Source of the DNA: Candidatus Avelusimicrobium luingense
GTDB taxonomy: Bacteria; Elusimicrobiota; Elusimicrobia; Elusimicrobiales; Elusimicrobiaceae
Assembly (NCBI GenBank): GCA_900315845.1
Contig: OOHK01000002.1
Span: 124,001-188,000, forward strand
Direction: 5' to 3'
DNA length: 64,000 nt
Shown: piece after piece, positions 7,983-42,281 of the stretch
Position numbering within the stretch: position 1 is the first letter of the stretch
How the letters are laid out: each line of letters opens with the position of its first letter
Translations under genes and position numbers: made by a program
Notes under the pieces: generated by a model
Told to the model about the DNA's origin: nothing
Seen by the model: only the letters and a program-made list of their open reading frames with translations
The model's database searches: none

Positions 7983-8015
7983 TATCAGACGATTATAAAA
8001 AAACCGGAGCATTTT

Positions 8016-8519
8016 ATGAATAACAAAGGTTTTACACTCATTGAACTTTTAGTAGTTGTACTGATTATCGGTATTTTAGCAAGTGTCGCGCTGCCGCAAT
8101 ACAAAAAAGCCGTTATGCGTAGCCGCTATTCCAACTTAAAAGCGATGGCAAACGCCATGGCAGACGCGGAAGAAGTCTATTATTTAGCAAACGGATCTTA
8201 CACCATGGATGCAGAGGCTTTGAGCATAGAACTTCCCGCCGGGCAGAGTGACGGAAGATTTTTTTATTTTAACTCAGATTATTATTGCCTATTTACAATC
8301 GGATTTGATAATGACGAACGTTTAGCCTGTGTGGATGAAAAGGTAGGTCTTTCTTATGAGATCCATTTACAAAACAACACAACGCCAGCACACGCTGGAG
8401 CGAAAACTTGTGTTGTCAACCCACCGGGCACACAACTAGCACACCAACTATGCAAACAAGAAACCGGAATGAATGCTCCGTGGTATTCCGATTCCGGTTA
8501 CTCAATTTATCGGTATTAA
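8016..8519 (+). CDS. Type IV pilin-like protein, tandem partner
   Basis: A 167-residue prepilin: MNNKG leader, [35 protein letters not shown], then VYYLANGSYTMDAEALSIEL and four or more cysteines. The ribosome binding site and start region are the same as those of the gene at 7536 (GGAGCATTTTATGAATAAC), which points to tandem duplication. No separate promoter is evident in the 33-bp gap. A strong bidirectional terminator follows. Confidence 0.9.
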   Translation: MNNKGFTLIELLVVVLIIGILASVALPQYKKAVMRSRYSNLKAMANAMADAEEVYYLANGSYTMDAEALSIELPAGQSDGRFFYFNSDYYCLFTIGFDNDERLACVDEKVGLSYEIHLQNNTTPAHAGAKTCVVNPPGTQLAHQLCKQETGMNAPWYSDSGYSIYRY

Positions 8520-8604: not shown

Positions 8605-9651
8605 TTATTTTTTGGCTTTTTTCTCTGCCGGTTTTTCTTCGCCGGCCGGTTTTCCGTCATAATGATGGCCGAGATATTTTACATACAATTTATCTTCAAT
8701 TTCGGCCGCCAGTTCCGGGTTATCTTTAAGATATTGGCGCGCATTGTCGGCCCCTTGGCCAAGTTTTTCTTCGCCATAGATAAACCAACTGCCGCTCTTT
8801 TCAATAATGCCGGCTTCCACGCCTTTATCAATAATACACGCTTCGCGCGAAATACCTTGGCCTAAAATCATGGTAAATTCGGCTTGGCGATACGGCGGCG
8901 CTACTTTGTTTTTGGTTACTTTGGCGCGCACACGCGTACCGATAATTTCGTCACCTTTTTTCAAGTTTTCAATGCGGCGCACATCAATACGCACGGACGC
9001 ATAAAATTTAAGAGCAAGTCCGCCGGGGGTCGTTTCCGGGTTGCCGAACATCACGCCGATTTTTTGGCGCAATTGGTTAATGAAAATAATGCTCGTTTTT
9101 GTTTTATTTAAAAGGCTGGTGAGTTTGCGCAGGGCTTGGCTCATCAGGCGCGCTTGCAAACCGACGTGAGCATCGCCCATTTCCCCTTCAATTTCGGCTT
9201 GCGGAACAAGCGCGGCTACGGAGTCCACCACGATTAAATCAATCGCGCCCGAGCGCACTAACTTTTCGGCAATTTCCAAGGCTTGTTCGCCGGAATCGGG
9301 TTGCGAAACGAGCAACTCATCCACATTTACGCCCAAATTAGCGGCATACACCGGGTCCAAAGCGTGTTCGGCATCAATAAACGCCACCGTTCCGCCCATC
9401 TTTTGCGTTTGCGCGGCAACGTGCAACGAAAGCGTCGTTTTACCGCCGGCTTCCGGCCCGTAAATTTCAATAACGCGCCCGCGCGGAAGTCCGCCCACAC
9501 CGAGCGCCAAATCTAACGACAACGCGCCCGTAGGGATGGCTTCTACTTTTTGTACCGAGCCGCTGCCTAATTTACAAATGGCTTCTTTGCCGAAGGCCTT
9601 TTCGATTTGGCCTAGGGCGAGGTCTAATGCTTTTTGTTTGTTTGCGTCCAT
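8605..9651 (-). CDS. recA: Recombinase RecA
   Basis: The 348-residue ATPase forms filaments on single-stranded DNA for strand exchange and the SOS response. The Walker A motif reads GPEAGGKTT (65-73) in place of the usual GPESSGKT; the lysine and threonine are kept. Walker B ([12 protein letters not shown]), the L2 loop with [22 protein letters not shown], and a lysine-rich C-terminal tail are all present. TGGAGG precedes the ATG. It lies 13 bp downstream of clpC and may be read from clpC transcription; no SOS-type palindrome is seen before it. Confidence 0.98.
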
Positions 9652-9664
9652 AATTCCTCCAAAA

Positions 9665-12193
9665 TTATGCGTTCACCGGTTCTTTGGTTTTCGCTCCCGC
9701 AAAAGTGAGTTTGCGGGTTTCTTTATTAAAATCTACCACAATCTTCGTACGCGCGGGATATTGGCTGACAAGTATATTTTCCGCAAGCGGATCTTCCAGT
9801 TCGCGCTGAATCGTGCGCAAGAGCGGGCGCGCACCGAATTTCTCGTCAAAGCCTTTTTCCACCAAGAAGTTTTTGGCTTCTTCGGTCAGTTCCAACGATA
9901 ATTCTTTTTCCGCCAATTTTTCATCCACTTCTTTGAGTGCCAAATCTAAAATCGCACCGATATTTTCACGCGACAGTGAATGGAAAACAACAATTTCATC
10001 AATACGGTTGATAAATTCCGGATTGAACGTCTTTTTCACTTCATCCATCACATTTTGGCGCATATCCTGATAATCTTGCTCGGCGCTTTGGTGAGCCGCA
10101 AAACCGAGTTGGTTGCCTTTATTGGTAATTTCGCGCGCACCGACGTTAGACGTCATAATAATCACGCAGTTTTTGAAACTGACGCGGTGGCCTAAATTAT
10201 CCGACAAAGCCCCTTCATCCAACACTTGCAGTAAGATATTGTAAATGTCCGGGTGGGCTTTTTCCAATTCGTCCAAGACCACCACGCTATACGGGCGGCG
10301 GCGGACGGCTTCGGTCAGTTGGCCGCCTTCTTCATAGCCCACATAGCCGGGCGGCGCGCCGATTAAGCGTGAAACGGCAAATTTTTCCATATATTCGGAC
10401 ATATCCAACCGAATCATGGCTTCTTCATCGCCAAACAAGAACATGGCTAAACTTTTGGCAAGTTCGGTTTTACCCACGCCCGTAGGGCCGAGGAATAAAA
10501 ACCCGCCGATCGGCCGGCTGGGGTTGCCCAACCCGGTACGGTTGCGGCGAATTGCTTGCGACACGACACGCACCGCATCATCTTGCCCGATAATGCGTTC
10601 ATGCAAGCGTTCTTCCATGTGTAAAATTTTGTCGGTTTCGCTTTGCGTCATGCGCGTAACGGGAATGCCCGTCCATTTAGATGCCACCAGTGCGATATCT
10701 TCTTCCGTTACTTCCGGTACGTTGTTAACGTTTTCTTCTTGCCATTTCTTTTTCAAATGGTCAATGTAATTTTTCAGCCGGTCTTCGGTATCTTTAGCGG
10801 CGGCGGCTTTTTCAAATTCTTTATTGGCGAGCGCCTCGTCTTTTTCCAACACGGCCTGATTGTACTCCGCTTGTTTTTGGCGGATTTCGGGCGGCAACGT
10901 AGCATTTTTAAGCCGTGCCCGTGCGCCGGCTTCATCAAACAAATCTAATGCTTTATCCGGCAAGACGCGGTCGGAAATATAGCGGTCGGAAATAGAAGCG
11001 GCCGCTCGGATAGCCCCGTCGGTAAATTTCACTTTGTGGTGTTGTTCGTATTTGGCGCGGACTCCTTTTAATATAGCAATGGTTTCATCCACATCCGGCG
11101 GCTCAATAACGACCGGTTGGAAGCGTCTTTCCAAAGCGGTATCGGTTTCCACGTATTTGCGGTATTCATCAAAAGTGGTCGCCCCGATACACTGCACTTC
11201 ACCGCGGGCCAAGGCGGGCTTTAACATATTGGAAGCATCCATAGACCCTTCCGCCGCCCCTGCCCCGATAATGGTGTGAAGTTCGTCAATGAAAATAATG
11301 GCATCTTGCGCAGCAGCCATTTCATCAATAATATTTTTTAAGCGTTGCTCAAATTCACCGCGGTATTTGGTTCCGGCAATGACGGACGCCATATCCAACG
11401 CAAGCAACCGTTTTCCGGCGAGCAAGTCGGAAATTTCCCCGCGGGCAATTTTTTCGGCCAGTCCTTCCACAATAGCCGTCTTACCTACACCGGGCTCCCC
11501 GATAAGTACCGGGTTATTTTTCGTGCGGCGGGCTAAAATTTGCACCACGCGTTCAATTTCTTCATCGCGCCCGATAACCGGATCCAATTTGTGTTGGGCA
11601 GCCAAGCGGGTTAAATCGCGGGTATATTCATCCAACGTCGGAGTTTTTGATTTTTTATTAGTCTTGTTAGATGAATTTTCATCATTTTTGGCCCACATAG
11701 GCATATTGATTTCTTGTGATTCTTCGGTACTTTTTTCCGCGATATCGTCTTCGCTGGCGTTTCCTAAAAAGGTCAAAACGGCTTCACGCACGGAAGATAG
11801 TTTTTGGCCTAAATTATCCAAAATTTTTGCAGCCATCCCTTCTTCTTCGCGCACAAGGCCGAGCAAAATGTGTTCTGTGCCGATATGTTCCGTACCCAAC
11901 ACTTGTGATTCTTCCACGGAAAATTCCAACACCGCTTTAGCGCGCGGCGTGAACGGAATTTCACCCAATAACATAATCGTATCGCCGATGCCGACCATTT
12001 TTTCAATTTCTTGGCGCACCTTACGAAACGTAATTCCCAAGCCGGACAATACTTTATGCGACACCGTACCGTCAATGGCACTCAACCCCAGTAAAATATG
12101 TTCCGTACCGACGTAATCGTGATTTAAGCGTTTGGCTTCTTCTTGTGCGATTAAAATAATTTTTTGTGCATTTTCGGTAAATCGTTTAGCCAT
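9665..12193 (-). CDS. clpC: Clp protease ATP-binding subunit ClpC
   Basis: About 842 residues from the ATG at 12193 ([10 protein letters not shown]), chosen over the ATG 21 nt upstream because a GGGG stretch precedes it and the N-terminus then matches the family. It has a double Clp-N repeat, first AAA+ domain with GEPGVGKT at ~228, a short middle domain with a UVR-type [12 protein letters not shown] segment, second AAA+ domain with GPTGVGKT at ~566, and the D2-small region. ClpC unfolds substrates for ClpP. mcsA/mcsB/ctsR are not adjacent, so the Firmicutes-type regulation is not evident here. Confidence 0.95.
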
Positions 12194-30508: not shown

Positions 30509-30708
30509 TAAAAATTTGAACCCCCCTTATGGGGGTTTTAATTTTTGTGAAGTATCGAGCGGCATAAACTGCTTTATGCCGCGTCGAGATTCGAAGCCCA
30601 CAGCGATGTATGAGTTTTGCCGTTAGGCAAAGGCGAATACCGCGAGGGCGGTTCCGGGCAAAATTTCCGTCAGGAAATTTATGCAGGACGAATCTCGTCA
30701 ACTCCGTA
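30491..30708 (+). repeat. tRNA-Asp 3'-end direct repeat (att-like) with three internal hairpins
   Basis: The 20 bp at 30491-30510 recur at 30689-30708 with one mismatch (G to A at the seventh base from the acceptor end). Between them an inverted copy of the T-arm, CGAGATTCGAA, lies at 30585-30595. Three hairpins follow each other: GCGGCATAAA/TTTATGCCGC (30558-30583), TGCC/GGCA near 30618-30630, and AAATTTCC/GGAAATTT (30661-30680). No gene lies inside. This looks like attL/attR around a tiny remnant. Confidence 0.65.
30519..30545 (+). terminator. Terminator of tRNA-Asp
   Basis: AACCCCC (30519-30525) pairs with GGGGGTT (30531-30537), followed by a T-rich tail. Confidence 0.8.
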
Positions 30709-30733
30709 TTTTAGTTTTTGATTATTAGCATTT

Positions 30734-30768
30734 ATCCCCGTTAGGGTTAAACCCCGACGGGGATTTTT
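30734..30768 (+). terminator. Hairpin terminator at start of island
   Basis: ATCCCCGT (30734-30741) with ACGGGGAT (30757-30764), a nested GGGTT/AACCC stem and a T run. The rest of 30711-30917 holds no gene I can support. Confidence 0.6.
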
Positions 30769-30917
30769 ATGCACCACTTTGAGCATGCGCTTTTTGGCAG
30801 ATTTTTGTGAATTGTAAAGAATCTTTTGTTTTTATGCTGACCGGGGATGGGTAGGAAGTGGCGCACGTGCTTATAAATATCTACGCCTTCACGCTTCTTC
30901 TGGGCCTAGAAGTCAAG

Positions 30918-31489
30918 TTAAAACTTAGTGCCAATATAGTCAATAGCGTCTAGTCCGGCATCAAAAGCATATTCGTAATAATCTTCCCAGCGACCTGTGC
31001 CTAAATGGTGGCATAAGCACATAAGCCACGGTCCATACTTGTTTTTAGCGTACGTTCGCCACACGCCAAACATCAGAAGCGGATCCTTGAGCCATTTGCC
31101 GTATTTAGTTAAAAACATCAAAATATCGTTGGGAGTTAGTTTGTCCACCAGTTTGCGCGGCGCACCTTCGGTTGGATTAGTTATATACTTTCCGTCTTGC
31201 ATTTTGCCCATACACACGATCGTGCCCATCACAGCCGGAGCGCCCGTGCATGTATAAAATGCTACGCCCTCCTCTTCGTGTTCAATGGCTTTGGAAATAC
31301 GTTCATAAATTTGATAGCCAAATCAATCGGGCTATGATGATAACAGTTCATTTTATCCAAAAACGGCTCTCCTTTGTAGGTAAGTTGGTAACGCATAAAG
31401 TGCTGCACGGCTTCCCTCTTGGGATAAATATATCCTCTATCTCTAAGCCCCTTACTGTGTAAGTAAATAAATAAATCATCCTCTGTCAC
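30918..31489 (-). pseudogene. Frameshifted gene of unknown function
   Basis: Two minus-strand frames, 31489-31262 (GTG start, MTEDDLFIYLHSKGLRDRG) and the frame ending at 30918 (AGLDAIDYIGTKF), join into one continuous protein of ~190 residues if a single base is added near 31319. The second frame is open upstream as YQIYERISKAIEHEEEGVAF, which continues HHSPIDLA from the first. A T lost from GGCTTATC would explain it. The protein is acidic and aromatic-rich with several Cys; no family recognised. Its GTG start overlaps the stop of the 33-residue ORF upstream (GTGA), indicating translational coupling. Confidence 0.6.
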
Positions 31490-31587
31490 CTTTTAAGCGC
31501 ATACAACGCATCAAAAAGTGCCTCTAATTGCACATCTTCGTCTTCTTTACTGCGTTTCCATATTTCAACCATGTCATATTGTTTCAT
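31486..31587 (-). CDS. 33-residue microprotein, first gene of a small operon
   Basis: Too short for usual gene callers, but it has a textbook AAGGAG seven nt before its ATG and overlaps the next gene's GTG by 4 bp. The peptide (MKQYDMVEIWKRSKEDEDVQ at its N-terminus, ending LYALKR) is charged and helical. It may be a leader that couples translation of the downstream gene, or a functional small protein. No family recognised. An extended -10 (TGT-TATATT) lies ~25 nt upstream. Confidence 0.6.
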   Translation of the reverse strand: MKQYDMVEIWKRSKEDEDVQLEALFDALYALKR

Positions 31588-31622
31588 AGTTTTTCTCCTT
31601 TTTTATAGAATATAACATTCGC

Positions 31623-31640
31623 ACGACAACCTGTTGTCGC
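31623..31640. promoter_or_regulatory. Palindromic operator, copy 1
   Basis: ACGACA-ACCTGT-TGTCGC, containing the perfect 16-bp palindrome CGACAAC-CT-GTTGTCG (31624-31639). It lies over the -35 region of the plus-strand riboswitch promoter (-10 TATACT at 31651-31656) and of the divergent minus-strand promoter. A second copy with the same 6-bp half-sites and spacing is at 42772-42789. Confidence 0.6.
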
Positions 31641-31662
31641 ATCATTTTGCTATACTATAAGT

Positions 31663-31787
31663 ACCATAGAGAGTGTACGAGGGGCAAGCCCGACGACTAC
31701 ACAGCAACCTGCCCAAGCAAGGTGCTAATGCTTGAAAGATGGGACCTCTTACCGTTTAAGCCCATCTTTGCGATGGGTTTTCTTTTT
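31663..31787 (+). promoter_or_regulatory. SAM-I (S-box) riboswitch with terminator expression platform
   Basis: From TGC-TATACT at 31651-31656 an RNA starts near 31663. It has the S-box core: CCAT (31664) pairing with ATGG (31739) as P1; AGAG junction; a kink-turn-like GAGGGG...GCCCGACGA P2; then CAGCAACC and AAGGTGCTAA of P3 and its junctions. The P4 arm is much shorter than in typical S-boxes. AAAGATGGG (31735-31743) can pair with CCCATCTTT (31761-31769) as antiterminator, while CCCATC pairs with GATGGG (31772-31777) plus a T run as terminator. P1 formation by SAM would free the terminator, so expression should be OFF at high SAM. Confidence 0.8.
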
Positions 31788-31823
31788 GATACTCCTGTGG
31801 AATTTATCTAAAAAGAGGTAGTT

Positions 31824-32288
31824 ATGAACATAGTTCTTAACAATATGTATCAAAAACAATTGCCATCGAAACACACCGATGACAATGCTAAATTGGAAGT
31901 GGGGTTATTTAAATACCTTTACGATAAAAAAATAATCACCCACGAAGATTTTCTAAAAGCTGGCGGAGATAGTTTAAAACATCTTAAATTCCCGACGGAA
32001 ATGAACGTTAAAATAAAACTTGCCGGCATTCGTAGTTTGCATGTTTTTTTAACTGAAAAAAAAGAGGTCGGATTTTTAGACGATTTGCAAAAAGAGCACC
32101 CCGAGTCCTATCCGCAGATTCAGCATTATTTGAAACACTTTTATTATAAAGTTATCCTACAAATGATTAAAAATCACCATACGATGCAAATGAAATTCAA
32201 ATATGCCATGCTATGCGCTTCTCTACGTGGTATGCGCGGTGAGATATCTACTATCCAAACAAACAAGGAGCCCCAATATGACAAATAA
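31824..32288 (+). CDS. Unknown protein, first gene under the SAM riboswitch
   Basis: A 154-residue protein preceded by AAGAGG. It is lysine- and histidine-rich, mostly helical (ITHEDFLKAGGDSLKHLKF, QHYLKHFYYKVILQMIKNHH). No signal peptide, membrane segment or known catalytic motif is seen. Overlaps the next gene by 11 bp. Being directly behind an S-box it would be expected to relate to methionine, SAM or methylation, but nothing in the sequence shows this. Confidence 0.65.
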   Translation: MNIVLNNMYQKQLPSKHTDDNAKLEVGLFKYLYDKKIITHEDFLKAGGDSLKHLKFPTEMNVKIKLAGIRSLHVFLTEKKEVGFLDDLQKEHPESYPQIQHYLKHFYYKVILQMIKNHHTMQMKFKYAMLCASLRGMRGEISTIQTNKEPQYDK

Positions 32289-33473
32289 TTTTTTTCTAAA
32301 TGCACCGGAGTTAAAAAAACACTTATCATATATTAACGAGAATTTAGCCGATCCGCAATATAATAGTTTTATTATTACGGGAGACTCAATCGGCGGTGCA
32401 TTTGCCTTAGAGCAGTTCGTGCGCGATTTGAAACAAAAACATCCCTTGCGGGAAATTTTGGTCTTTAATACACACAGCATACATGATTTTATTAAAAAAA
32501 CGCCCATAGAAATGCTAACTAATTTTTATCGGTTACATATCAGTTTAGCAACGGTAATTTTAACAGAATTGGATGTGGAAGGATGGACAAAAGAAGAACA
32601 GGATAAACTAGCGGTATTTCTTAAAACACTGACCAAACATTATGTTCAGGTAGTGGCTGCCTTCAATACAGGAGCGAGCCTTACACCCGAAATGTGGAGT
32701 TGGTATATGTCCGGTTATCAATACCACTTAAATTATGGACTTGTCAGTTATAAAAAGGATTTAACCTGTTCGCTCACGTTGGCGCAAGACAGGAAACGTT
32801 GGCACTGGCTTTCGCGCATACGACAAACATATCATTTTGGCGAGTTATATCCCGGTATTTTAATGCAAGATGACGAAATGGTTTTCAACGGGTTTATGCT
32901 CATGGAACTTGGACTTTGCTGGTTGGGCAAATTTACACCTCCCGGCTATATTTTCCCACGTGCCGTCTGCCCCACTTGCGGCAAAATAAAGTTACTACCT
33001 TATTCTTGTATCGCTTCGGCATTATCCGGTGGGCATGTGATTAAATTTCATTGCCTAAATTGTCACGAACGCATAGCTACCAACAATGCAATAGATTATT
33101 ATCGCATCCTACGCACCTATGGAACACGTTACTGTTATATTGCCAAACCGCTGCCGGTAAAGAATTTTCCGATCTGCTTAAAAAAGCAGCCGAAATGGAT
33201 CCGGAGTGGGCAAAATCGGCTTTGAAAACGTACACGTATCAAGTAGGCGGAAAAGAATTGATATGGATGGATTACAGCGATATTTATAGCAACTTATACA
33301 TTAAAGACTTTTGGAATATAAAGGATGAGTTTAGAAACAGCGATCAATGTTGCGTAGAAGTATGCATTGAATCCAATGATACTTTTTGTTTCTGGACATT
33401 TAACGGCGAGAAAATTCGCATGCAAATTAAAGACGACAAAATCACCTGTTTGGACGTGCAATTTACCAAATAA
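32278..33473 (+). pseudogene. Frameshifted zinc-ribbon protein of unknown function
   Basis: Start at 32278 (AAGGAG upstream; MTNNFFLNAPELKKHL). The frame reads to 33225, while the frame to 33473 continues with natural-looking sequence (AAGKEFSDLLKKAAEMDPEW). Adding one A to the AAA at 33145-33147 joins them into ~398 residues. The N-terminal half has a FIITGDSIGGAFALEQFV stretch that recalls a P-loop-like or hydrolase turn but without a full motif. A CPTCGK/CLNCHE zinc ribbon lies at ~225-265. A -1 slippery site, A-AAA-AAG, at 33180-33186 is an alternative explanation for the two frames. Confidence 0.6.
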
Positions 33474-33476
33474 ACC

Positions 33477-34451
33477 TCATCTCTGCAATCGGCACTTTTT
33501 GATCAGCATAAAACACGGACACCCGTGGTATTTCTCATATACCCACATGCACGGGCAATTCCATTTTAAGCCATATAAGCACATTGCAACGATTACATAG
33601 AAAAAATAGAAAAACGCCGGGTGTACATATAACCCCAATAGCCCAAATACCGTCATCATGCCCGATTTGGAACGGTATGAAAAGGCCGTTTTTTCCGGTT
33701 TAAGACTATATCCCAAGTATAAGTGGATAAACACAAGTCCGCCTAATACAGACAGTGTAATTTGGTGAGCCGCCGTAAAATAACACAGGGCAAGCGCCAG
33801 TACCAACCGAACCAAGACACTCCACCCGCCCGCTAAAGTCACGCTCAACATCCGCACATTATTTTGGTAAAGGGCATAATCGGGATTTTTTTGCAAAAGC
33901 CACTGTTCTTCGGCCTTAGCGCGGCGCACCATCAGCGGCAAGAACACTCCGCTTACTACTATCCATGTAAGCGCGTTGGCCAGCATGAGGCTTCCGCACC
34001 AACACCACAGCAAGAGCGAGGCATACATGGGATGTCTGGCTAAGGCATAAGCACCTGTGGTGCGTAACGGATGATCGGTTTTTATTTCTATTCCGTCAGA
34101 CCATAAAGTACCGATGTTCAATTTTGCCCATACGTGCCAGAGCGTAGCGAACAACAAGCCTGCTGTCCCAAGTACAAAGAAAAAATACTGCGCGGCAACC
34201 GGCAAACGCACTTGCCCCCAAGAACCGATCCAACACGGAAAAAGCATCAAAACCAATAGCAACATTTCCCGCGTAGAAAAAAAGTGAGCGCGTTGTTTCT
34301 CAAGCACTTGAGCAGCCATACGGTGCTCATAAAATTTCCATACTACCGCTGCTAACAGGATAACACCCGTTATATATATGAGTATAATTCCTATCAAAAA
34401 AAGAGTGGGATTTTGAGCCCGCTCACTAACTTGCAGTATCCACGTTATCAT
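33477..34451 (-). CDS. ICMT/PEMT-like membrane methyltransferase
   Basis: Start set at the ATG at 34451 (TTTGGAG 8 nt upstream). About 324 residues with six to eight hydrophobic segments. The motif TGAYALARHPMYASLL followed by EEQWLLQKNPDYALYQNNV is the SAM-binding signature of isoprenylcysteine carboxyl methyltransferase-type enzymes. These methylate lipids or prenylated cysteines in membranes; the substrate here is unknown. The C-terminal third is a second membrane unit ending in a Cys-rich tail (CPCMWVYEKYHGCPCF). Last gene of the MarR-aas-rSAM operon, overlapping the Lgt-like gene by 26 bp. Confidence 0.75.
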   Translation of the reverse strand: MITWILQVSERAQNPTLFLIGIILIYITGVILLAAVVWKFYEHRMAAQVLEKQRAHFFSTREMLLLVLMLFPCWIGSWGQVRLPVAAQYFFFVLGTAGLLFATLWHVWAKLNIGTLWSDGIEIKTDHPLRTTGAYALARHPMYASLLLWCWCGSLMLANALTWIVVSGVFLPLMVRRAKAEEQWLLQKNPDYALYQNNVRMLSVTLAGGWSVLVRLVLALALCYFTAAHQITLSVLGGLVFIHLYLGYSLKPEKTAFSYRSKSGMMTVFGLLGLYVHPAFFYFFYVIVAMCLYGLKWNCPCMWVYEKYHGCPCFMLIKKCRLQR

Positions 34452-35073
34452 GCGCACGTCTCCAAATAATCAAAATACATACCGGGATAAATGCCACCGC
34501 CAGCCATTGGTACACACTTAATTGCAGCCATACCCGGGGTTCTGTTCGCCAAAATTCAATAATAAAACGCATTACTAAATACGATAGCAAATACACCGGA
34601 AATAACAAATCGGCACGTTGGGTGCGCCGATAAAACAGATATAAACAACCGGCCATGACAAATTGAAAAATACTTTCCAGCAGTTGAACAGGAAAAGCCA
34701 ACGTCCCCCCGCAACAACCATTTAAGTAACAACCGATCTTTCCGAATCCGATAGTAACCGCCAACGGAATTACAAACCTTCCGCCGAAACCGCCTGTATG
34801 ACCGCTACATTTTTTGTATAAGTTAATCGCTAAAAAAGCGCCCAATATACCGCCCATCACGCTTTTGCCTTGCAAGATATAACCGTACCAACCGTACGAA
34901 AGCCATATCGGCACTTTGGCGCCCACAATAGCACCGATAAAAGCGCACACATAAATAGGTAACCGTACCGCTTGCGGCGGGCGGGGCATCTGTATTTTAT
35001 AGGCCAACAGTCCCCCTACGATTAAACCGATACTGGAACAAATTGCGTAAGCAAGCATAGTATTAGTTAGCAA
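34426..35073 (-). CDS. Lgt-like (prolipoprotein diacylglyceryl transferase family) membrane protein
   Basis: A 215-residue protein with six to seven hydrophobic segments. GKSVMGGILGAFLAINLYKK and GFGKIGCYLNGCCGGTLAFP match the Lgt family, in which Lgt itself moves diacylglycerol from phosphatidylglycerol to the lipobox cysteine. The usual GRxGNFxN is altered to GKIGCYLNGCCGG, and the chain is shorter than Lgt, so it is likely a paralogue with a related lipid-transfer role and not the housekeeping enzyme. Overlaps neighbours on both sides (11 and 26 bp). Confidence 0.75.
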   Translation of the reverse strand: MLTNTMLAYAICSSIGLIVGGLLAYKIQMPRPPQAVRLPIYVCAFIGAIVGAKVPIWLSYGWYGYILQGKSVMGGILGAFLAINLYKKCSGHTGGFGGRFVIPLAVTIGFGKIGCYLNGCCGGTLAFPVQLLESIFQFVMAGCLYLFYRRTQRADLLFPVYLLSYLVMRFIIEFWRTEPRVWLQLSVYQWLAVAFIPVCILIIWRRAHDNVDTAS

Positions 35074-35281
35074 GGGCTATAATACCCATACAGGTCATAA
35101 ACAACAAAAAAGGGATACCGATAATCACACCGGCCACAATCAATAATACAATGCCTATCTGTTTCTTAACGGAATAGGGTTGCCCGGTTTGTTCGGTTGT
35201 CTTGGAAACCGACTCCGGCAGTGAAGACAAAGGGTTTTCTGTATTATTTTGTTCGTTAGAAGAATTATTATTTTCTACCAT
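35063..35281 (-). CDS. Small single-pass membrane protein
   Basis: A 72-residue protein with an Asn/Ser/Glu-rich soluble N-terminus (~40 residues), then one membrane helix (KKQIGIVLLIVAGVIIGIPF). Its ATG overlaps the stop of the radical SAM gene (ATGGTAG), and its end overlaps the Lgt-like gene by 11 bp. This tight coupling suggests a structural partner of the operon's membrane enzymes. No family recognised. Confidence 0.65.
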   Translation of the reverse strand: MVENNNSSNEQNNTENPLSSLPESVSKTTEQTGQPYSVKKQIGIVLLIVAGVIIGIPFLLFMTCMGIIALAN

Positions 35282-36594
35282 GTTATGACTCCTTTAAGCG
35301 CATTATGGACGCAAAACGGAATTACTTTTCCGTGCCCGACACTTACGCCTGTGCAACACTGTTGAGCACGTTGCCAATCAAACGTGTCTGCGTCCATAAA
35401 GTTTTTTACAATAATACGCACAATTTTCATATCCTTGTGGCAAGAGCCGTTGCCTTGAGCGAACTCTTGCAGTTTGTCCAACATAAAATTGCTCCCCAAA
35501 ACGCGACCCACAAAACATTTACATACATTTTTTTTCATGTAATCTAAAATTGTTTTATCAAAGGCAATCCGGTTGGAAATTTGTGATTTACATTTGGAAA
35601 AATCTACATAATCACCCAAAGAATATACGTTATCGCCTTGGCAGAACAAAAAGCCCAAACTGGTGCAATTTTCGTGCGAACATGGCAAAGGGATTAAATC
35701 TTTATACTTCATATATCCGCTGTTAGCCACCGCCAGTAAAATATCTTCCTGTAACACCGACGGTATAACGCTACCGACGGCACTTCCCACTTTTGTTAAA
35801 CGCTGAAACGTAATACCGGAAATATGTTTCATTTCTACGGCTAATTTCAAAATAGCCGGAATTTCTTTTAAGTTGCCTTGATAGACGGTAACCGCCAAAC
35901 AAATTTTGATTGCGGCTTCGTTTAATTGTTTCAAAATTTCTTGCTTTTGTGTTAACAAGGATTTCCCGCGTAGGGTTTTATATACTTCATCATCAAAGCC
36001 GTCAAACTGCAAATAGATCTCTACCCGGTCCTTATGTTGTTTAATTAACTCAAAAACAGCGGTGTCTGTTAACAAATTAAGCCCGTTCGTATTGATTAAA
36101 ATACGTCCGATATCTGCTTGCAAAGCCGTTTGTAAAATCTCGCCAAATTGCGGATGCAGCAAACACTCCCCACCGCTGATTTGTAACACATCCAAATGGC
36201 CCTGCTCAACCGTTAACAATGTTTGCAAGCGGGATTTAAATTCTTCCACCGAAATATGCCGGGCAGATTTCTTTCCGAAATAACAAATCGGGCAAGCCAA
36301 ATTACAGGCATCCGTTATTTCTATAAGGCCGGTGCAAATGTGTTGTTTATGTTTCTCGCACCAACCGCAATCGGGGCCGCAATTACCATTAAAAGCGCTA
36401 ACGGCTTGAAAGGGTTTCCCTTCTACGTCATACGTTTTATCAAAAAAGCGCTCGGCATCCTTGGCTATTTGTACCTTAAACGTCCCGTGCTGCGGACAGG
36501 TTTTTTCCAGCCACACATCACTTCCCCGTTGTACTTTTACGGCGGGAATTGTTTTTAAGCAAATAGGGCACAACGCTTGCGTTTCTTGTTTCAT
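35275..36594 (-). CDS. Radical SAM protein of the MJ0619/Tes-like type
   Basis: A 439-residue protein. CNLACPIC (Cys97, 101, 104) binds the radical SAM [4Fe-4S] cluster, with the GGE motif in LQISGGECLLHP. The N-terminus has a rubredoxin-like set (CPIC at 9-12, CPQHG at 33) and a second Cys cluster (C72, C76, C79, C87); more cysteines lie in the C-terminal third (CSHENC, CKCFVG, QQCC). This N-terminal knuckle plus multi-cluster layout is that of the MJ0619 family, which includes tetraether lipid synthase (Tes). Joining or modifying lipid chains is therefore inferred, supported by lipid-enzyme neighbours on both sides. Confidence 0.75.
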   Translation of the reverse strand: MKQETQALCPICLKTIPAVKVQRGSDVWLEKTCPQHGTFKVQIAKDAERFFDKTYDVEGKPFQAVSAFNGNCGPDCGWCEKHKQHICTGLIEITDACNLACPICYFGKKSARHISVEEFKSRLQTLLTVEQGHLDVLQISGGECLLHPQFGEILQTALQADIGRILINTNGLNLLTDTAVFELIKQHKDRVEIYLQFDGFDDEVYKTLRGKSLLTQKQEILKQLNEAAIKICLAVTVYQGNLKEIPAILKLAVEMKHISGITFQRLTKVGSAVGSVIPSVLQEDILLAVANSGYMKYKDLIPLPCSHENCTSLGFLFCQGDNVYSLGDYVDFSKCKSQISNRIAFDKTILDYMKKNVCKCFVGRVLGSNFMLDKLQEFAQGNGSCHKDMKIVRIIVKNFMDADTFDWQRAQQCCTGVSVGHGKVIPFCVHNALKGVITW

Positions 36595-36606
36595 AATTGA
36601 TAAGTC

Positions 36607-39600
36607 CTACTTATTTAATGCCATCTCTTTTAATTTTACATAATCTACTTTACCGGTCCCCATCAACGGAATTTCATCCATAGGACAAATGGTTTTGGGA
36701 ACGGCCAGTTCGCTCAATCCTTTTTCTTTGAACGCCGTTAATAAATCACTGCGTTGGGCGTCTTTTTGAGTGGTAAAAAGCACCAACTGTTCGCCTTTTT
36801 TCTCATCGGGCACGTTCACTACGGCGTGCATTTGATTGGGCCAAAGCGCACTCACTTCCGTTTCAACAGCGGTCAGTGAAATCATCTCACCCGCAATTTT
36901 TGCAAAGCGTTTGGCGCGGCCCAAAATAAACACAAATCCGTCTTCGTCCACGCGCACAATGTCGCCGGTGTCATACCACCCGTCTTGTGGAGGTTCTAAT
37001 ACACCGGGGTTGCTGTCGCGCAAATATCCGGCCATAATGTTGGCCCCTTTTACTAATAATTTTCCGCCGTTTTCCACCCCCGGAATTTGTTCCAACTTAT
37101 ATTCGATACCCGGCATAAAGCGGCCCACACTGCCGCGCTTAAAATACATAGGCGTATTGACCGCCATAACCGGGGCAGTTTCGGTTGCGCCGTATCCTTC
37201 CATAATACGCAAACCGAATTGGTCGTAATATTTGCGGATGGTTTCTTCTTTGAGTTTTTCGGCCCCTACAACCGCCAAACGCACCGAATAAAAATCATAC
37301 GGGTGCGCCATTTTGGCATAGCCGTTGAAGAAAGTATCCGTACCGAAAATCAATGTAGCATTGGTATCGTAAATCAATTCCGGCACAATACGATAATGAA
37401 GCGGCGACGGATAGAAAAATACCGTCACGCCGGATAGCAACGGAAGCAATGTTCCCCCCGTAAGTCCGAAGGAATGGAAAATCGGCATTGCATTAAACAC
37501 GCGGTCTTTGATACCGAAATCAAGCACACTGCGCACTTGCAACAAATTGGCTTGTAAATTTTCGTGGCTGAGTACCACCCCTTTGGGGGTGCCTTCACTA
37601 CCCGACGTAAATAATACCACGGCCGGATCTTTGGAAGTTACTTTTCCGCGTACGCATTTATAATAGCGGCGCGGGAAATAAGACGCCAATAAACCAACTG
37701 CTTTATCCCAAACCGTAATTCCTTTTTTCAAATCTTCCAAATAGACCAGTGTAAGTCCCGCTTCTTTCAGAGCGGCGGCCGTTTCCAATAAGCCACCTTG
37801 CTCTAAAAAGGTTCTAGATGTAAAGACCGTAGTAATTTTGGCGGCTTTACAACAAGCAATCATATTTTTTACCCCGGTAGAAAAGTTCAACATACAGGGA
37901 GTAATACTAAAAGCGCGCATCCCGAAAAAGGCCACCACACTGGCCGTCATATTCGGCAGTAAAAATCCGGCCATTTTGTCCTTTTTCTGGCGTTTGGCAA
38001 TTTGTTTACCCAGCACAAATACCGCCGTTAAAAATTGCCCGAACGAGAGCCACTTGCGGCTGGCATCCCCGATAATTCTTTTCTTGCGGCCCACCAATTC
38101 ATACGCATCTAACAAAGAGTCAAATAAAGTTTCTTGTGCATGGCCCGCTTCATATTTCATGTTAACCATAATGTCATAGAGTCCGCGGGAAGCGGCCAAA
38201 CGGCGCGCCTTGCCTTTGATGTTTTCATCAATTTTTAAGGTTTTCGGGGCCTGAATGGTAATAGAAATTTTACTTTGCGGACGCGTTTTTAATTGCGTAC
38301 CGAAACGCGAGAAAATAGAATATTGGCTGCCTTCCAAATAAACAGGAAGCAGTTGCGCATTACTTTTATCGGCAATCATAGCCGGCCCGGGATAAATTTT
38401 CATCAGCCCGCCGGTGGTAGTAATACGCCCTTCCGGAAAAATAACCACCCGCTTGCCCGATTTTACTTCTTCAATAATGGACTTTACAGCCATCGGATTA
38501 GTGGGATCAATCGGAAAGTATTTAATCAAATGCAAGAAAGGTTTCACCCACCATTTTTGGCTGACGTATGTATCAATCGCAAAATGCAAATCGCCCGGCA
38601 AATACACCCACAGCAACGCTGCATCCAAAAACGAAGTGTGATTGGCAATAATAAGCGCATTTCCTTTTAAGTTCTTCCAATGTTCTATTCCGATGACTTT
38701 GACGCCATATACCCAATTAAGTATCCGCGTCATAATCATGCGGATAATGTGGTGCGGCAAGAGCCCGCAGATATAAATAGCCGCCAACGCGTTAAGCAGC
38801 GCAATGACTCCAAAAACGCCCGGAATCGTAAAATGCATAGACAGCAACAACGCGCAGAACCCGCTACCCAACACCATAAAGAGAGAATTGATAATGTTGT
38901 TCGTGGCAATCACGCGCGAACGTGTATCTTCGTCGGCTAAAAACTGGAGCATTGCATTAAGCGGCACCACATATAAACCGCCACATACGGCAAAACCGAG
39001 CAAATCAAACGTAATGCGTTTGCCCGCAAATGTCAATAAAAACGCTTTATAATCTACCGGCGATAGTGACGGCACATAACCCGAAGTAGCACATGCCAAA
39101 TCGGCTAAAAACACCGTCATCAAAAGCGCACTGATCGGAACGTACTTGCTGGTAATCTCGCCTTTTACTAAAAATTGACAGAGTAAGGAACCAAGCCCAA
39201 TTCCGCACGAAAACAACGTCAGTAAAAATGTAAACAGCCCGGGCGTACCGTTCAAAATATCATGTGCCAAAGAAGGCATTTGAGCAATGAGAGCCGTCCC
39301 CAACATCCAAAACCAAGAAATACCTAAAATACATAAAAAGATATTGTGGTTTTGTTTCGCAAAGGCCATATTTTTCCACGTACTGCGTAAGAAATTTTTA
39401 TCTACTTTCAAATTGGCATTTGCCGGTTTTTGCGCCGGGATAAACAAACTGGCTGTTAAGCCCAGTACCGCTACGCCTAAAATAATTCCCGGCAACCAAT
39501 ATTCGTTAGCAGCGATAATAATTCCGCCGAAAATCGTACCTTGCAAAATAGAACCATATGTGCCCGCTTCAATTAACCCGTTTCCGGCAATGAGTTGTTT

Positions 39601-40017
39601 TTCCCCTAATATATCCGGCAAAATACTGTATTTGACAGGGCCGAAAAAGGCAGATTGTGTTCCCATTAAAAATAATACGCCCAGCAAAAGGGGTACATTA
39701 ACGGTTAAAAAGCCAAGTCCGGCCAAAAGCACAATAACAACTTCCAATACTTTCGTGGCTTTAATAAGAATATCTTTACGGAATTTGTCGGCCAGTTCCC
39801 CCGCCACCGCCGAAAATAAGAAAAACGGCAACATAAATAAAGCAACCGCCAAAGACACAATAACCGATTTACTTTGTGCCGACATTTCGGTAACCTTATA
39901 CGTAATAAACGTGGCCATGGCGGTACGGAAAAAATTATCGTTAAACGCACCTAAATATTGCGTGCAAAATAAAGCCAAAAACGAACGGTTAAAAAAAGTT
40001 TTAAGTAAAGATAACAT
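36607..40017 (-). CDS. aas: LplT-type MFS / PlsC acyltransferase / acyl-ACP synthetase fusion
   Basis: About 1136 residues from the ATG at 40017, which has an AGGAGG site inside the end of marR. Residues 1-~420 form an MFS transporter like LplT (lysophospholipid flippase). A PlsC domain follows with NHTSFLDAALL (~457) and FPEGR (~525). The last ~450 residues are an AMP-forming acyl-ACP/acyl-CoA synthetase with LFTSGSEGTPKG (~800) and GYGATETAP. In E. coli LplT and Aas are two proteins that take up, re-acylate and recycle lysophosphatidylethanolamine; here they are one chain. It is second in the MarR operon. Confidence 0.9.
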   Translation of the reverse strand: MLSLLKTFFNRSFLALFCTQYLGAFNDNFFRTAMATFITYKVTEMSAQSKSVIVSLAVALFMLPFFLFSAVAGELADKFRKDILIKATKVLEVVIVLLAGLGFLTVNVPLLLGVLFLMGTQSAFFGPVKYSILPDILGEKQLIAGNGLIEAGTYGSILQGTIFGGIIIAANEYWLPGIILGVAVLGLTASLFIPAQKPANANLKVDKNFLRSTWKNMAFAKQNHNIFLCILGISWFWMLGTALIAQMPSLAHDILNGTPGLFTFLLTLFSCGIGLGSLLCQFLVKGEITSKYVPISALLMTVFLADLACATSGYVPSLSPVDYKAFLLTFAGKRITFDLLGFAVCGGLYVVPLNAMLQFLADEDTRSRVIATNNIINSLFMVLGSGFCALLLSMHFTIPGVFGVIALLNALAAIYICGLLPHHIIRMIMTRILNWVYGVKVIGIEHWKNLKGNALIIANHTSFLDAALLWVYLPGDLHFAIDTYVSQKWWVKPFLHLIKYFPIDPTNPMAVKSIIEEVKSGKRVVIFPEGRITTTGGLMKIYPGPAMIADKSNAQLLPVYLEGSQYSIFSRFGTQLKTRPQSKISITIQAPKTLKIDENIKGKARRLAASRGLYDIMVNMKYEAGHAQETLFDSLLDAYELVGRKKRIIGDASRKWLSFGQFLTAVFVLGKQIAKRQKKDKMAGFLLPNMTASVVAFFGMRAFSITPCMLNFSTGVKNMIACCKAAKITTVFTSRTFLEQGGLLETAAALKEAGLTLVYLEDLKKGITVWDKAVGLLASYFPRRYYKCVRGKVTSKDPAVVLFTSGSEGTPKGVVLSHENLQANLLQVRSVLDFGIKDRVFNAMPIFHSFGLTGGTLLPLLSGVTVFFYPSPLHYRIVPELIYDTNATLIFGTDTFFNGYAKMAHPYDFYSVRLAVVGAEKLKEETIRKYYDQFGLRIMEGYGATETAPVMAVNTPMYFKRGSVGRFMPGIEYKLEQIPGVENGGKLLVKGANIMAGYLRDSNPGVLEPPQDGWYDTGDIVRVDEDGFVFILGRAKRFAKIAGEMISLTAVETEVSALWPNQMHAVVNVPDEKKGEQLVLFTTQKDAQRSDLLTAFKEKGLSELAVPKTICPMDEIPLMGTGKVDYVKLKEMALNK

Positions 40018-40018
40018 G

Positions 40019-40507
40019 TTATTTTTCCTCCTGAAGTAACACAAACCAATCTCTTAAAATCTGTTCTATTTGCGGACGCCGCGGCGCGGGGATTTTCTCC
40101 GTCAAACTTTTTACCAATCGGTCATATCCCGGCCACGCCGTATCAATTAACTTTTGACCTTTCGGGGTAATGCAAATGATATTTTCACGGCGGCTTTGCG
40201 GATTGGTTTGGCGCGTGAGCAACCCCGCCCGCACCGATTTTTCCACCAATTTGGTGATATTACTGGCCGAGGCAATCAGCCGTTTGGACAATTCCACTTG
40301 ATTAAGGCCCTTGCCATTGTTTTGATAGGCAGCCAACATCAGCAAGTTAAATTGCACCGCAGACAGACCATAGGAAAACAAATATCTTTCCACCCGCGTT
40401 TGCAACCGGTTATACACCAAGGCCAGCACATACGTAATGTTTTCGTAGCGACGACCTTTCTTCGGATTGATACCATAAGATTGTAAGTCGGTTTTATTAG
40501 TTTCCAT
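40019..40507 (-). CDS. MarR-family transcriptional regulator
   Basis: A 162-residue winged-helix protein: LALVYNRLQTRVERYLFSYGLSAVQFNLLMLA, then NQVELSKRLIASASNITKLVEKSVRAGLLTR (recognition helix) and the wing SRRENIICITPKGQ. MarR proteins are dimeric repressors that release DNA on ligand binding. It leads the lipid operon and ends 1 bp before aas, so it probably controls the operon and itself. A consensus promoter lies directly upstream with the -10 6 nt from the ATG. Confidence 0.9.
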   Translation of the reverse strand: METNKTDLQSYGINPKKGRRYENITYVLALVYNRLQTRVERYLFSYGLSAVQFNLLMLAAYQNNGKGLNQVELSKRLIASASNITKLVEKSVRAGLLTRQTNPQSRRENIICITPKGQKLIDTAWPGYDRLVKSLTEKIPAPRRPQIEQILRDWFVLLQEEK

Positions 40508-40513
40508 ATAAAT

Positions 40514-40542
40514 AATTTACTAATAAACTTTTTATTTGTCAA
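40514..40542 (-). promoter_or_regulatory. Promoter/operator of the MarR-lipid operon, leaderless
   Basis: Perfect TTGACA (40542-40537), 17-bp spacer, TAAATT (40519-40514), 6 nt to the ATG at 40507. An imperfect 12-bp palindrome (TTTACTAATAAA, 40516-40527) overlaps the -10 and spacer and is a possible MarR operator. Confidence 0.6.
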
Positions 40543-40642: not shown

Positions 40643-41422
40643 TCATTTGAGATAATACTTTTCCAATTCGTTCCAACCCCGTTGATGCGCTAGTTGCAAA
40701 TATGAATCTTGCCGATCTCGCGCCGCCGCCAATCCCAATGCCGCGGAAATAAAGAACATTTTTTCCTTATCTTTCAGTAAAGCGCTTGTATCTTTATCTA
40801 CATCGATACGATACCGGTAAGGCCGGTAAATAAAATCTGCGGCGGATGAAAACTTCTTTTTGTTTAACCCCACCCGAAAACTTTGCCATATATCGCAAGG
40901 CAAACCAGCCCCCACACAAGCAAAGGTAAGTCGGTCTTTTTGCTGTACTAATTCTTCGGACGCGGGGTTGATTCTTCTGATGCCCGGTACCAACTTTTGA
41001 CGCCCCGCATACACGGCATTTTTGATTCCCAAAGAGGGCAAAATAAAATCGGACACTAATTTAAGCGGGCCCGTCTTATATTCCCAAGAGCCGTCTTGCT
41101 TGCGCTCTTTAATACCACGCACAAGCACGCCGCCGAAAATATTTTTTTCACCATCCCCGATAGTAATATCTATTCCGCTTCTATGCCAATAAATTTTCCC
41201 GCGGCTGCCTTGCAAGGCAGAATTGTGACGGAATTTATCCGGATGTTCCGGGCTTTCATAATAAAATTCCAATTCGGTAAAATAAAATTCCCGATTTTCC
41301 GGCAGTACCTTTAGGCAACAATTTTCAAACAAATAAGCGGCCAACGCATTAAATTTATCAAAGGCATTTTTGCGCTGCGGCAAATCATCACATAATTTAC
41401 TAAAAGTTTCGTTGGTATTCAT
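40643..41422 (-). CDS. Conserved hypothetical protein
   Basis: A 259-residue soluble protein. The middle has EFYFTELEFYYESPEHPDKF and WHRSGIDITIGDGE followed by GGVLVRGIKE, which recalls a conserved bacterial family with a 'H...GIDIT...GGxLIRG' core, but I cannot attach a tested function. The C-terminal 60 residues are basic and helical. It overlaps the deiminase gene by 23 bp and is the third gene of that operon. Weak Shine-Dalgarno (CAGAG). Confidence 0.6.
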   Translation of the reverse strand: MNTNETFSKLCDDLPQRKNAFDKFNALAAYLFENCCLKVLPENREFYFTELEFYYESPEHPDKFRHNSALQGSRGKIYWHRSGIDITIGDGEKNIFGGVLVRGIKERKQDGSWEYKTGPLKLVSDFILPSLGIKNAVYAGRQKLVPGIRRINPASEELVQQKDRLTFACVGAGLPCDIWQSFRVGLNKKKFSSAADFIYRPYRYRIDVDKDTSALLKDKEKMFFISAALGLAAARDRQDSYLQLAHQRGWNELEKYYLK

Positions 41423-42281
41423 TATATTCTCTGGTTAAACAATGTACCGCTCCGCCATATTGCGAAATCTGCTCGCAATCTATCCTCACCAGCGGTTTAC
41501 AGGTGTATTTTTTCATTATATCAATAACACGGTCATCTTCGGGCAAATTAAATTGCGGCACAAACACGGCGCGCGAAGTTTCCAAAAAATTCACGTAAAG
41601 CCCTTTGGCACTAAGCCAATCTTCTTCGTTACCGGCACACAACAGGCGGCACATATCCAACCCATTGGCTTTAGCATACCCGCGTAATATATCCGTTGCT
41701 TTACAGTCTAATAACGGGGCGATAGCCAACTCGCCATACAATGCTATTGTCCCTTCCGTTAAAAAATCACCCACGAATTGAATATAACCGTCTATGTGGC
41801 CGATTTTGTCATCTTTTTGCTGCGGCAGCCATACTATTTTCTGCACACCTAGCGCACGCTTTAATTCTTGTTCCACACGTTCTTTTTGCGCGGGATTTGA
41901 TTTGTGGAAAATCGTTTGTTTTTCCAAGCAAAACGCCTGTTTTTTGTCAGGGGCCAGCACAACATTTCCCCCGTCCATACGCACATCACACGGTTTAGCG
42001 TGCGGGAAAGCATCTCGCACCTGTTTGCGAATCGCCGCCGTAAATTTAGGCGTATAATTGGCATAACGCGGGTCAAAAAAAAGTTGATACAACTCTCTGG
42101 TTTGCATGTTTTGCACGGGCAAAAAATCACGCACCCAAATATCGGGTAGTTCCAACGCACGCACTTCGTGAAATTGTTTTAATTGCGCTGCAAAATGCTC
42201 GTAAAATTTCGCGTGGCCGGGATATGTCTTTTCCGTGTACCAAGTAGGTTTGGCCACATAAATAATTTCACCCCTTGCCAT
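41400..42281 (-). CDS. Agmatine deiminase / peptidyl-arginine deiminase family protein
   Basis: A 293-residue protein with the family's catalytic set: WVRDFLP (W-x-R-D), MDGGNVV (D-G-G-N), GHIDGYIQFV (G-H-x-D) and, near the end, GGAVHCLT with the nucleophilic Cys. These enzymes convert agmatine to N-carbamoylputrescine, or act on arginine-like substrates. The chain is ~70 residues shorter than E. coli-type agmatine deiminases, so the substrate is uncertain. GGAGG precedes the ATG, inside the end of the upstream gene. Confidence 0.8.
   Translation of the reverse strand: MARGEIIYVAKPTWYTEKTYPGHAKFYEHFAAQLKQFHEVRALELPDIWVRDFLPVQNMQTRELYQLFFDPRYANYTPKFTAAIRKQVRDAFPHAKPCDVRMDGGNVVLAPDKKQAFCLEKQTIFHKSNPAQKERVEQELKRALGVQKIVWLPQQKDDKIGHIDGYIQFVGDFLTEGTIALYGELAIAPLLDCKATDILRGYAKANGLDMCRLLCAGNEEDWLSAKGLYVNFLETSRAVFVPQFNLPEDDRVIDIMKKYTCKPLVRIDCEQISQYGGAVHCLTREYNEYQRNF

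Follow-up and report, generated by a model that had tools for sequence, protein, structure and literature searches.

A recurrent bacterial gene cassette pairing a Tes/TrsS-superfamily radical SAM enzyme with an Lgt-like transferase: a candidate membrane-modification system

Introduction

Two kinds of lipid-acting enzyme invite comparison with the gene cassette described here, which lies in a 64,000-nucleotide stretch of Candidatus Avelusimicrobium luingense (contig OOHK01000002.1, positions 124,001 to 188,000; this whole stretch is called the window) and encodes a radical S-adenosylmethionine (SAM) enzyme, a small membrane protein, an Lgt-like transferase and an ICMT-like methyltransferase. 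Tes is a radical SAM enzyme that couples two inert sp3 carbons in the tails of lipids, and to its discoverers such chemistry was new in nature (PMC9433317). The same paper describes a rubredoxin-like site (C9-x2-C12-x20-C33-x2-H36), an N-terminal cluster bound by C73, C77, C80 and a His, the CX3CX2C cluster, and a C-terminal cluster in which Met439 is labile and can be replaced by Ala without loss of activity. Mss, a bacterial membrane-spanning lipid synthase with a Tes-like modelled architecture, couples phospholipid tails (PMC13274423); we liken it to the radical SAM enzyme of the window by description only. Whether bacterial Tes relatives act on lipids is still called an open question in PMC8941075. 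The second comparison is Lgt, the prolipoprotein diacylglyceryl transferase. In Escherichia coli it requires H103, R143, E151, Y235, R239, E243 and R246 (PMC4728403).

The components of the cassette are members of known families, none of which accounts for the complete module. A radical SAM enzyme, one or two small membrane proteins, an Lgt-like enzyme and usually an ICMT-like enzyme are encoded by genes that travel, co-vary and partly fuse. This gene set suggests an undescribed tailoring of membrane lipids or lipid-anchored peptides. A search of the open-licence literature found no publication on the pairing of the radical SAM and Lgt-like genes, which is weak evidence of absence, and the term Elusimicrob does not occur in PMC8941075 or PMC11868695. 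The window genome comprises 1.46 Mb in 8 contigs. Its nearest named relatives are metagenome-assembled genomes (MAGs) of Elusimicrobiaceae, and the named sources are herbivore rumen, rectum or faeces.

Layout of the locus

Six unbroken minus-strand open reading frames (ORFs) occupy positions 33477-40507, bearing out the packed gene set proposed in a first-pass annotation made from the sequence alone:

33477-34451, minus strand: ICMT-like membrane methyltransferase, 324 aa, core cassette (PF04140)
34426-35058, minus strand: Lgt-like transferase, 210 aa, ATG start, core cassette (PF01790)
35063-35281, minus strand: single-span membrane protein, 72 aa, core cassette (no Pfam family)
35275-36594, minus strand: radical SAM enzyme of the Tes/TrsS superfamily, 439 aa, core cassette (PF04055, PF23545)
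36607-40017, minus strand: Aas-type fusion of major facilitator, acyltransferase and acyl-ACP (acyl carrier protein) ligase parts, 1136 aa, separable accessory unit (NF005291)
40019-40507, minus strand: MarR-family regulator of the MarR-Aas unit (PF12802)

The spacing given in that annotation stands for four of the five junctions, with gaps of 1 bp (MarR-Aas) and 12 bp (Aas-radical SAM) and overlaps of 7 bp (radical SAM-small protein) and 26 bp (Lgt-ICMT). The fifth, an 11-bp overlap between the small protein and Lgt-like genes, depends on a TTG start at 35073; an ATG at 35058 leaves a 4-bp gap instead, and the Lgt-like proteins of relatives likewise start at the position matching this ATG.

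Recurrence of the core cassette

The radical SAM gene was found in 9 of 80 genomes of the family. Radical SAM, small protein, Lgt-like and ICMT-like genes occur together in all ten Elusimicrobiaceae loci (the window, L020-L027 and L047); the small gene of L021 was identified through its reading frames, and in L022 and L024 the small protein is fused to the C-terminus of the radical SAM enzyme. Scattering of the neighbours among relatives, which the first-pass annotation would have held against a shared role, is therefore not what we see for these four genes. Across 340 Elusimicrobiota genomes, 19 contain a radical SAM match at E ≤ 1e-30, and an Lgt-like gene is adjacent in 16. Of the remaining three, one is cut by its contig end (G144) and two carry tandem radical SAM loci without Lgt (G180, G212).

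The pair extends beyond the phylum. A scan of genome contigs yielded 19 loci, namely eight from Elusimicrobia, four from Alphaproteobacteria, one from Kiritimatiellae and six labelled only 'Bacterium'; the 11 non-Elusimicrobia loci show 69-77% identity. The order of one of the Alphaproteobacteria has 3 positive genomes out of 43, all three of them from the contig scan. Radical SAM-Lgt pairs are also present in records of Alphaproteobacteria, Kiritimatiellae, Bacteroidota and Actinomycetota. When plasmids were searched by tblastn, a distant radical SAM query returned 10 records and the window Lgt-like query six. The four records in common (Persicobacter, Nonomuraea, Mycobacterium avium and M. 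branderi) all place the two genes about 1 kb or less apart; ICMT was not found in these four loci. Persicobacter psychrovividus and Nonomuraea gerenzanensis are examples of cultured bacteria with the radical SAM-Lgt pair. A search of viral contigs for phage-borne copies gave one weak fragment only.

Over a set of 53 radical SAM loci, scored with hidden Markov models (HMMs) built on a subset of those loci and including one genome represented by two pieces (L121 and L064), an Lgt-like gene lies on the same strand within 1.1 kb in 34, at 3.4 and 4.8 kb in two more, and is absent from 17, five of which are contig-cut. For a forward test we turned to 387 genomes from the phylum of the Kiritimatiellae carrier. 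Besides the known carrier, 11 new genomes were recovered, and their loci had been absent from HMM building. Lgt lies within 0.7 kb in six and at 3-5 kb in two, and is missing in three. ICMT was present in 3 of the 11.

The Lgt-like enzyme

The Lgt-like protein scores 73 bits against PF01790, above the gathering cut-off of 24.9, and falls below the Lgt equivalog cut-offs. Its Y160, R164, E168 and R171 correspond to Y235, R239, E243 and R246 of E. coli Lgt with exact spacing and are invariant in 19 of 19 aligned rows. The altered signature GKIGCYLNGCCGG singled out in the first-pass annotation is real, but it is not special to the locus: Lgt proteins elsewhere in Elusimicrobiota (L030 and 19 more) carry GC....GCC in 20 of 20 cases, where E. 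coli has its signature Asn and Glu, and we therefore rejected GKIGCYLNGCCGG as a distinguishing feature. Among the same 20 proteins a pattern search recognises the GG motif in 13, none with a preceding His, and does not match the other seven.

What does set the cassette copies apart is their phylogeny. A single branch (Shimodaira-Hasegawa-like approximate likelihood-ratio test, SH-aLRT, 100) divides 28 cassette copies, from the window and 27 loci, from 30 others in a tree built by a quick method with flagged long-branch joins. With the eight forward-test copies added, all eight fall on the cassette side (36 versus 30, SH-aLRT 100). The 30 others come from searched genomes outside the 11 forward-test genomes. 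Of the 31 loci having an Lgt elsewhere, L126 was missed by the HMM and is absent from both trees. The cassette enzyme thus shares its family and the Y/R/E/R network with prolipoprotein diacylglyceryl transferase, and lies on the opposite side of the tree from the other copies. At least two Lgt genes are present in 25 of 26 genomes (27 were searched with PF01790, and G212, whose radical SAM genes have no Lgt beside them, was set aside); the lone single-match genome, G348, has a cut cassette contig, and the window genome has two. Pairwise distances of the radical SAM and Lgt-like proteins correlate with a Spearman coefficient of 0.90 over 25 loci, a set without L047, L061 and L064 (0 of 2000 permutations), and of 0.77 over 13 representatives (a value reached in 0 of 5000 permutations).

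The small membrane protein

The 72-residue protein has a single predicted span with a lipobox-like ...FMTC near its outer end. We take the lipobox consensus to be a small residue followed by Cys where an N-in membrane span ends, and the position of the Cys resembles it at the sequence level. In 31 of 32 small proteins hand-picked beside the radical SAM and Lgt-like genes, a hydrophobic stretch is followed by a Cys in the context [TSA]C or GxC, the sole exception being the first of two in L055; that of L112 was located through reading frames, before its Lgt gene. Several loci carry two small proteins, and an Actinomycetota form found in three loci has GxCTG(L/I)NP near the C-terminus.

A fixed rule (a hydrophobic span followed by [TSAG]C or GxC) was then applied alike to the cassette surroundings and their outer flanks. 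For the 36 loci with Lgt it returned 39 candidates in 217 kb near the radical SAM gene and five in the 311 kb of flanking sequence (p = 7e-11 by a binomial test, relatedness ignored), and 26 of the 36 have a small protein that satisfies it. Among the 17 loci that lack Lgt, three candidates came up, all in the contig-cut gut cassette members L057 and L063, and none in the other 15. In the forward test the rule finds a small protein in 6 of 8 loci with Lgt versus 0 of 3 without. Ten Lgt loci were missed, among them the two fusions and five that show the motif beyond the limits of the rule (L064, L108, L111, L112 and L189).

The radical SAM enzyme

The protein combines a radical SAM domain (PF04055) with an HMPTM zinc ribbon (PF23545). 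TrsS (NF045646) is the best-matching family, with 244.3 bits over residues 4-431 against a cut-off of 490, followed by Tes (NF045702), with 178.5 bits against a cut-off of 450; five relatives score 210-346 bits against TrsS, and the Tes cut-off is passed by none of 334 Elusimicrobiota genomes. The match to the Tes structure 7tol is highly significant (2.7e-43 by phmmer, 7.1e-79 by profile). The first-pass assignment to the MJ0619/Tes type is thus right at the level of the superfamily but not of the family: as judged from these scores, the enzyme belongs to the Tes/TrsS superfamily and is not Tes itself. Nor does it group with non-lipid families such as peptide maturases.

Cofactor motifs of the Tes type are kept. 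C9/C12/C33/H36 (the rubredoxin-like C-x2-C-x20-C-x2-H), C72/C76/C79/H82 (the N-terminal [Fe4S4] C-x3-C-x2-C plus His) and C97/C101/C104 (the radical SAM CX3CX2C) are each invariant in 11 of 11 aligned rows. In an alignment to 7tol with a numbering offset of 20 derived by hand, C310, C413/C414 and C428 of the C-terminal part fall on Tes cysteines and Lys397 on Met439; the distant enzymes of L069 and L070 are without C310 and C428. The enzyme therefore has in common with Tes/GDGT-MAS (MJ0619, PDB 7tol) the rubredoxin-like site, the N-terminal cluster, the CX3CX2C motif and a CC...PFC near the C-terminus. It differs in length (439 residues versus a 526-residue chain), in the Lys at the Met439 position, in its additional cysteines C305, C358 and C360, and in its Lgt, small-protein and ICMT partners.

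On a tree of 41 radical SAM enzymes the presence of Lgt takes four changes, compared with a shuffled mean of 11.2; several long branches meet in this tree, and its 13 non-Lgt rows include L063 and L072, which are simply cut by contig ends. Fragments or contig-cut rows (L057, L060, L115, L121) were left out. Haloarchaeal and Mycolicibacterium enzymes were kept as non-Lgt cases in the tree and the counts, and the haloarchaeal plasmid records H5 and H6 were omitted. Those enzymes, which we class as TrsS-like without a model scan, differ from the cassette in that the sequence read around their genes contains a methyltransferase-domain gene but no Lgt; such superfamily genes with a methyltransferase-domain gene next to them were seen on Mycolicibacterium and haloarchaeal plasmids at L109, L110, L114 and L115.

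Other arrangements of superfamily genes were also encountered. Tandem radical SAM pairs without Lgt occur in L071 (5997-10136), L116 (6739-9761) and L190 (344-5438); short-chain dehydrogenase-like and FabZ-like genes, named by eye, are found near the pairs of L071 and L190, and an ORF matching the Aas HMM near that of L116. These tandem loci hint at a further gene set, one with a leaning towards fatty acids. One TrsS-like gene is adjoined by genes for CcdA and a disulfide oxidoreductase. A defence role was considered as well: for the radical SAM enzyme PADLOC gave only generic viperin-like matches, the remaining three core proteins had no match, and this reading was dropped.

The ICMT-like protein

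With 45.6 bits against PF04140 (gathering cut-off 24), this protein is an ICMT family member, and with 60 bits it stays below the cut-off of 160 for NF040696. It shares RHPMY and EE with ICMT family methyltransferases and adds a C-terminal cysteine-rich membrane domain ending in NCPC...GCPC. The RHPMY, EE, NCPC and CPC motifs are invariant in 15 of 15 aligned rows. The AlphaFold model is poor (predicted local distance difference test score, pLDDT, 63.7; 15 rows). DUF4395 proteins are encoded between the ICMT and Lgt genes of two distant cassettes (L069 9916-10374 and L070 5617-6078). Kinship of the cysteine-rich tail with DUF4395 was considered, as the motifs are alike, but a profile comparison gave a probability of 0.6%, and the link is therefore not claimed. 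A B12-binding domain protein (L069 11824-12615) follows one of the distant cassettes.

Mobility of the cassette

Two MAGs, from yak rumen (L020) and horse faeces (L047), are 96.0% identical over the 3409 bp that hold the cassette, and the remainder of the fetched stretches (19 and 14 kb) matches only in a repeat of about 165 bp. Because the cassette is this similar while the flanks differ, we read the sequences as pointing to recent horizontal movement. In L047 two copies of the repeat (4519-4687 and 7923-8091) flank the cassette and a third direct copy lies at 9173-9335; in L020 the repeat (6788-6955) is on the ICMT side only, beside a tRNA-Ser. The window has one copy:

30702-30868, plus strand: repeat of about 165 bp that borders the cassette in relatives (single copy in the window genome)

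It is located 2.6 kb past the ICMT gene and about 190 bp after a tRNA-Asp. The repeat includes an internal terminator-like hairpin and CAGCATAAA/TTTATGCTG arms, and is possibly an integration or cassette boundary site. As DNA it has a folding z of -1.52, with 14 of 200 shuffles folding equally well, and Rfam at gathering thresholds returned only a tRNA, in L020, and nothing for the repeat. In three contigs of one MAG (G061), L024 (C4), L028 (C23) and L029 (C14), the sequence breaks off within the same initial ~130 bp of the radical SAM gene, and two of the three have different genes past the repeat, as if the cassette were multi-sited in the population. L047 also encodes, at 9653-10726 and two repeats from the cassette, a Fic protein that the SoFic defence model recognises (1.5e-52). 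The first-pass annotation contained neither this mobility nor the conserved Cys of the small protein nor the separate Lgt branch.

The MarR-Aas unit

The Aas fusion scores 1531 bits against NF005291 (cut-off 1349). It is an ordinary Aas (acyl-ACP--phospholipid O-acyltransferase), special only in its pairing with MarR and its co-occurrence with the cassette. Aas directly follows MarR in 19 of 21 loci found through MarR. Its distance upstream of the radical SAM gene in the ten Elusimicrobiaceae loci is 12 bp or less in four, 827 bp in one and 5.2 kb in one; in three it was not found within the fetched 19-20 kb, and the contig of L024 stops at the radical SAM gene. Since the MarR-Aas pairing is kept in 19 of 21 loci and the pair adjoins the core in only 4 of 10, the single six-gene unit led by MarR that had been proposed has to be divided in two. 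The MarR-Aas pair is a unit of its own, with a tendency to occur alongside the cassette: MarR is present in 7 of 9 genomes of the family with the radical SAM gene versus 13 of 71 others (Fisher p = 0.0006, kinship ignored). In the alphaproteobacterial locus L055, too, an Aas gene lies upstream, at a distance of 740 bp; identity to the window proteins is 45% for this Aas and 77% for the radical SAM enzyme.

A promoter-like site precedes the unit:

40514-40542, minus strand: promoter-like site upstream of MarR, overlapped by a TTTATTAGTAAA palindrome (motif scan)

The site (40542-40514, TTGACA-17-TAAATT) is the sole one upstream of MarR on that strand within the region scanned, and it shares the best score among 11. 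The shuffled mean is 16.5, so the number of sites carries no meaning. Upstream of MarR, TTGACAAA.AAA, with the TTGACA box, is followed by a TAGTAAA stretch, and all five genomes compared show a like arrangement, among them L047, where MarR-Aas is 4.7 kb from the radical SAM gene.

Proposed function

We propose, at a probability of roughly 0.45, that the locus is a horizontally mobile membrane-modification cassette in which the Lgt-like enzyme would lipidate the Cys of the small protein while the radical SAM enzyme would alter lipid tails or the peptide. The Lgt-like enzyme may move a phospholipid-derived diacylglyceryl group to this Cys or a similar thiol. At the cytoplasmic face, the radical SAM enzyme could take a hydrogen atom either from the peptide or, in the manner of Tes, from a lipid tail, leading to coupling or functionalisation, and the ICMT-like enzyme could methylate an exposed group of the product. 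Where MarR-Aas is present, Aas might re-acylate the leftover lysolipids under MarR control. A bolder form, which we think unlikely, is a second dedicated protein-lipidation pathway, spread horizontally among bacteria of several phyla from gut and environment, in which Lgt lipidates the Cys and the Tes-type radical SAM enzyme couples or rebuilds the tails to give a peptide-tied membrane-spanning or tailored lipid.

Several findings weigh against the proposed lipidation of the small protein and modification by the radical SAM enzyme. We infer the cassette chemistry throughout from sequence. By eye in a motif alignment, the Lgt-like protein has Met, Lys and Cys at the positions of E. coli H103, R143 and E151, and the R143K change inactivates E. 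coli Lgt. Non-cassette Elusimicrobiota Lgts show like losses, and those of the cassette enzyme are therefore no proof of a changed reaction. The two fusions to the radical SAM C-terminus suit an anchor as well as a substrate. A Thr before the Cys, common at position -1 of the small proteins, is unusual for a lipobox; L194 shows only a Cys in another context, and L068 and L117 have no motif-bearing small protein. Twelve of the 53 radical SAM loci have room around them and no Lgt in the fetched stretch, the Lgt-linked rows of the radical SAM tree do not form a single clade, with their four changes, and ICMT, present in 26 of 36 Lgt loci, is missing from 10. For the radical SAM enzyme itself, the Tes stretch between the core and the C-terminal cluster motif is longer and different, and the AlphaFold model is poor (pLDDT 56.6, 13-row alignment).

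Part of the same evidence could be explained by a Tes/Mss-like lipid synthase, in which the radical SAM enzyme acts on phospholipid tails by coupling or altering them, the small protein is a tether, the Lgt-like enzyme changes the head group by passing diacylglyceryl to a small acceptor and the ICMT-like enzyme caps the product. Superfamily membership and cofactor motifs speak for it, as do the fusions in L022 and L024, the co-occurrence of the Aas unit and the tandem genes near SDR-like (short-chain dehydrogenase/reductase-like) and FabZ-like genes in L071 and L190 (by eye). It leaves unexplained the kept anchor Cys and the paired small proteins of several loci, and the enzyme is nearest to TrsS rather than Tes, with Lys at the Met439 position; we consider it possible but somewhat doubtful. 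The small protein might instead be a substrate for peptide maturation, acquiring for example a thioether or other cross-link at its Cys before being finished by the Lgt-like and ICMT-like enzymes. A short, variable protein with one conserved Cys beside a radical SAM gene, in one or two copies per locus, would suit such a role, which is nevertheless quite unlikely given the scores (TrsS 244 and Tes 178 bits, versus less than 55 bits for the first peptide-maturase families) and a conserved part that is a membrane span rather than a leader and core.

That the best radical SAM family is TrsS, listed as a radical SAM selenoprotein family, raises the further alternative of sulfur, selenium or redox chemistry at the membrane, with the TrsS-like enzyme, the Cys-rich DUF4395 protein or ICMT tail and the Cys-tipped proteins handling sulfur species. 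DUF4395 in L069 and L070, the NCPC...GCPC tail and the CcdA and disulfide oxidoreductase genes by one TrsS-like gene are in keeping with it; the Lgt-family partner is hard to account for in these terms and the ICMT tail is not tied to DUF4395 by profile comparison, which makes it improbable. Finally, the genes could be chance neighbours with no common function, as the occurrence of MarR-Aas without the cassette might suggest. For the four core genes this is contradicted by conservation across phyla, the forward test, the fusions, the co-varying distances and the single Lgt branch, and we find it hardly credible.

With this module, one bacterial branch of Tes relatives gains recurrent partners, a protein that may be its substrate and a genomic signature put to a forward test, and its chemistry can therefore be tested by expression of the four genes. 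Bacterial Tes-like hits need not imply membrane-spanning lipids, as some are in Lgt-linked cassettes and others beside a methyltransferase-domain gene.

Neighbouring genes

Between the repeat and the ICMT gene (30918-33473) are five ORFs, possibly other mobile cargo; none has a Pfam match, and the four that were tried against PADLOC gave no match either. Upstream of the operon, positions 41400-42281 encode a member of the Porphyromonas-type peptidyl-arginine deiminase family (PF04371).

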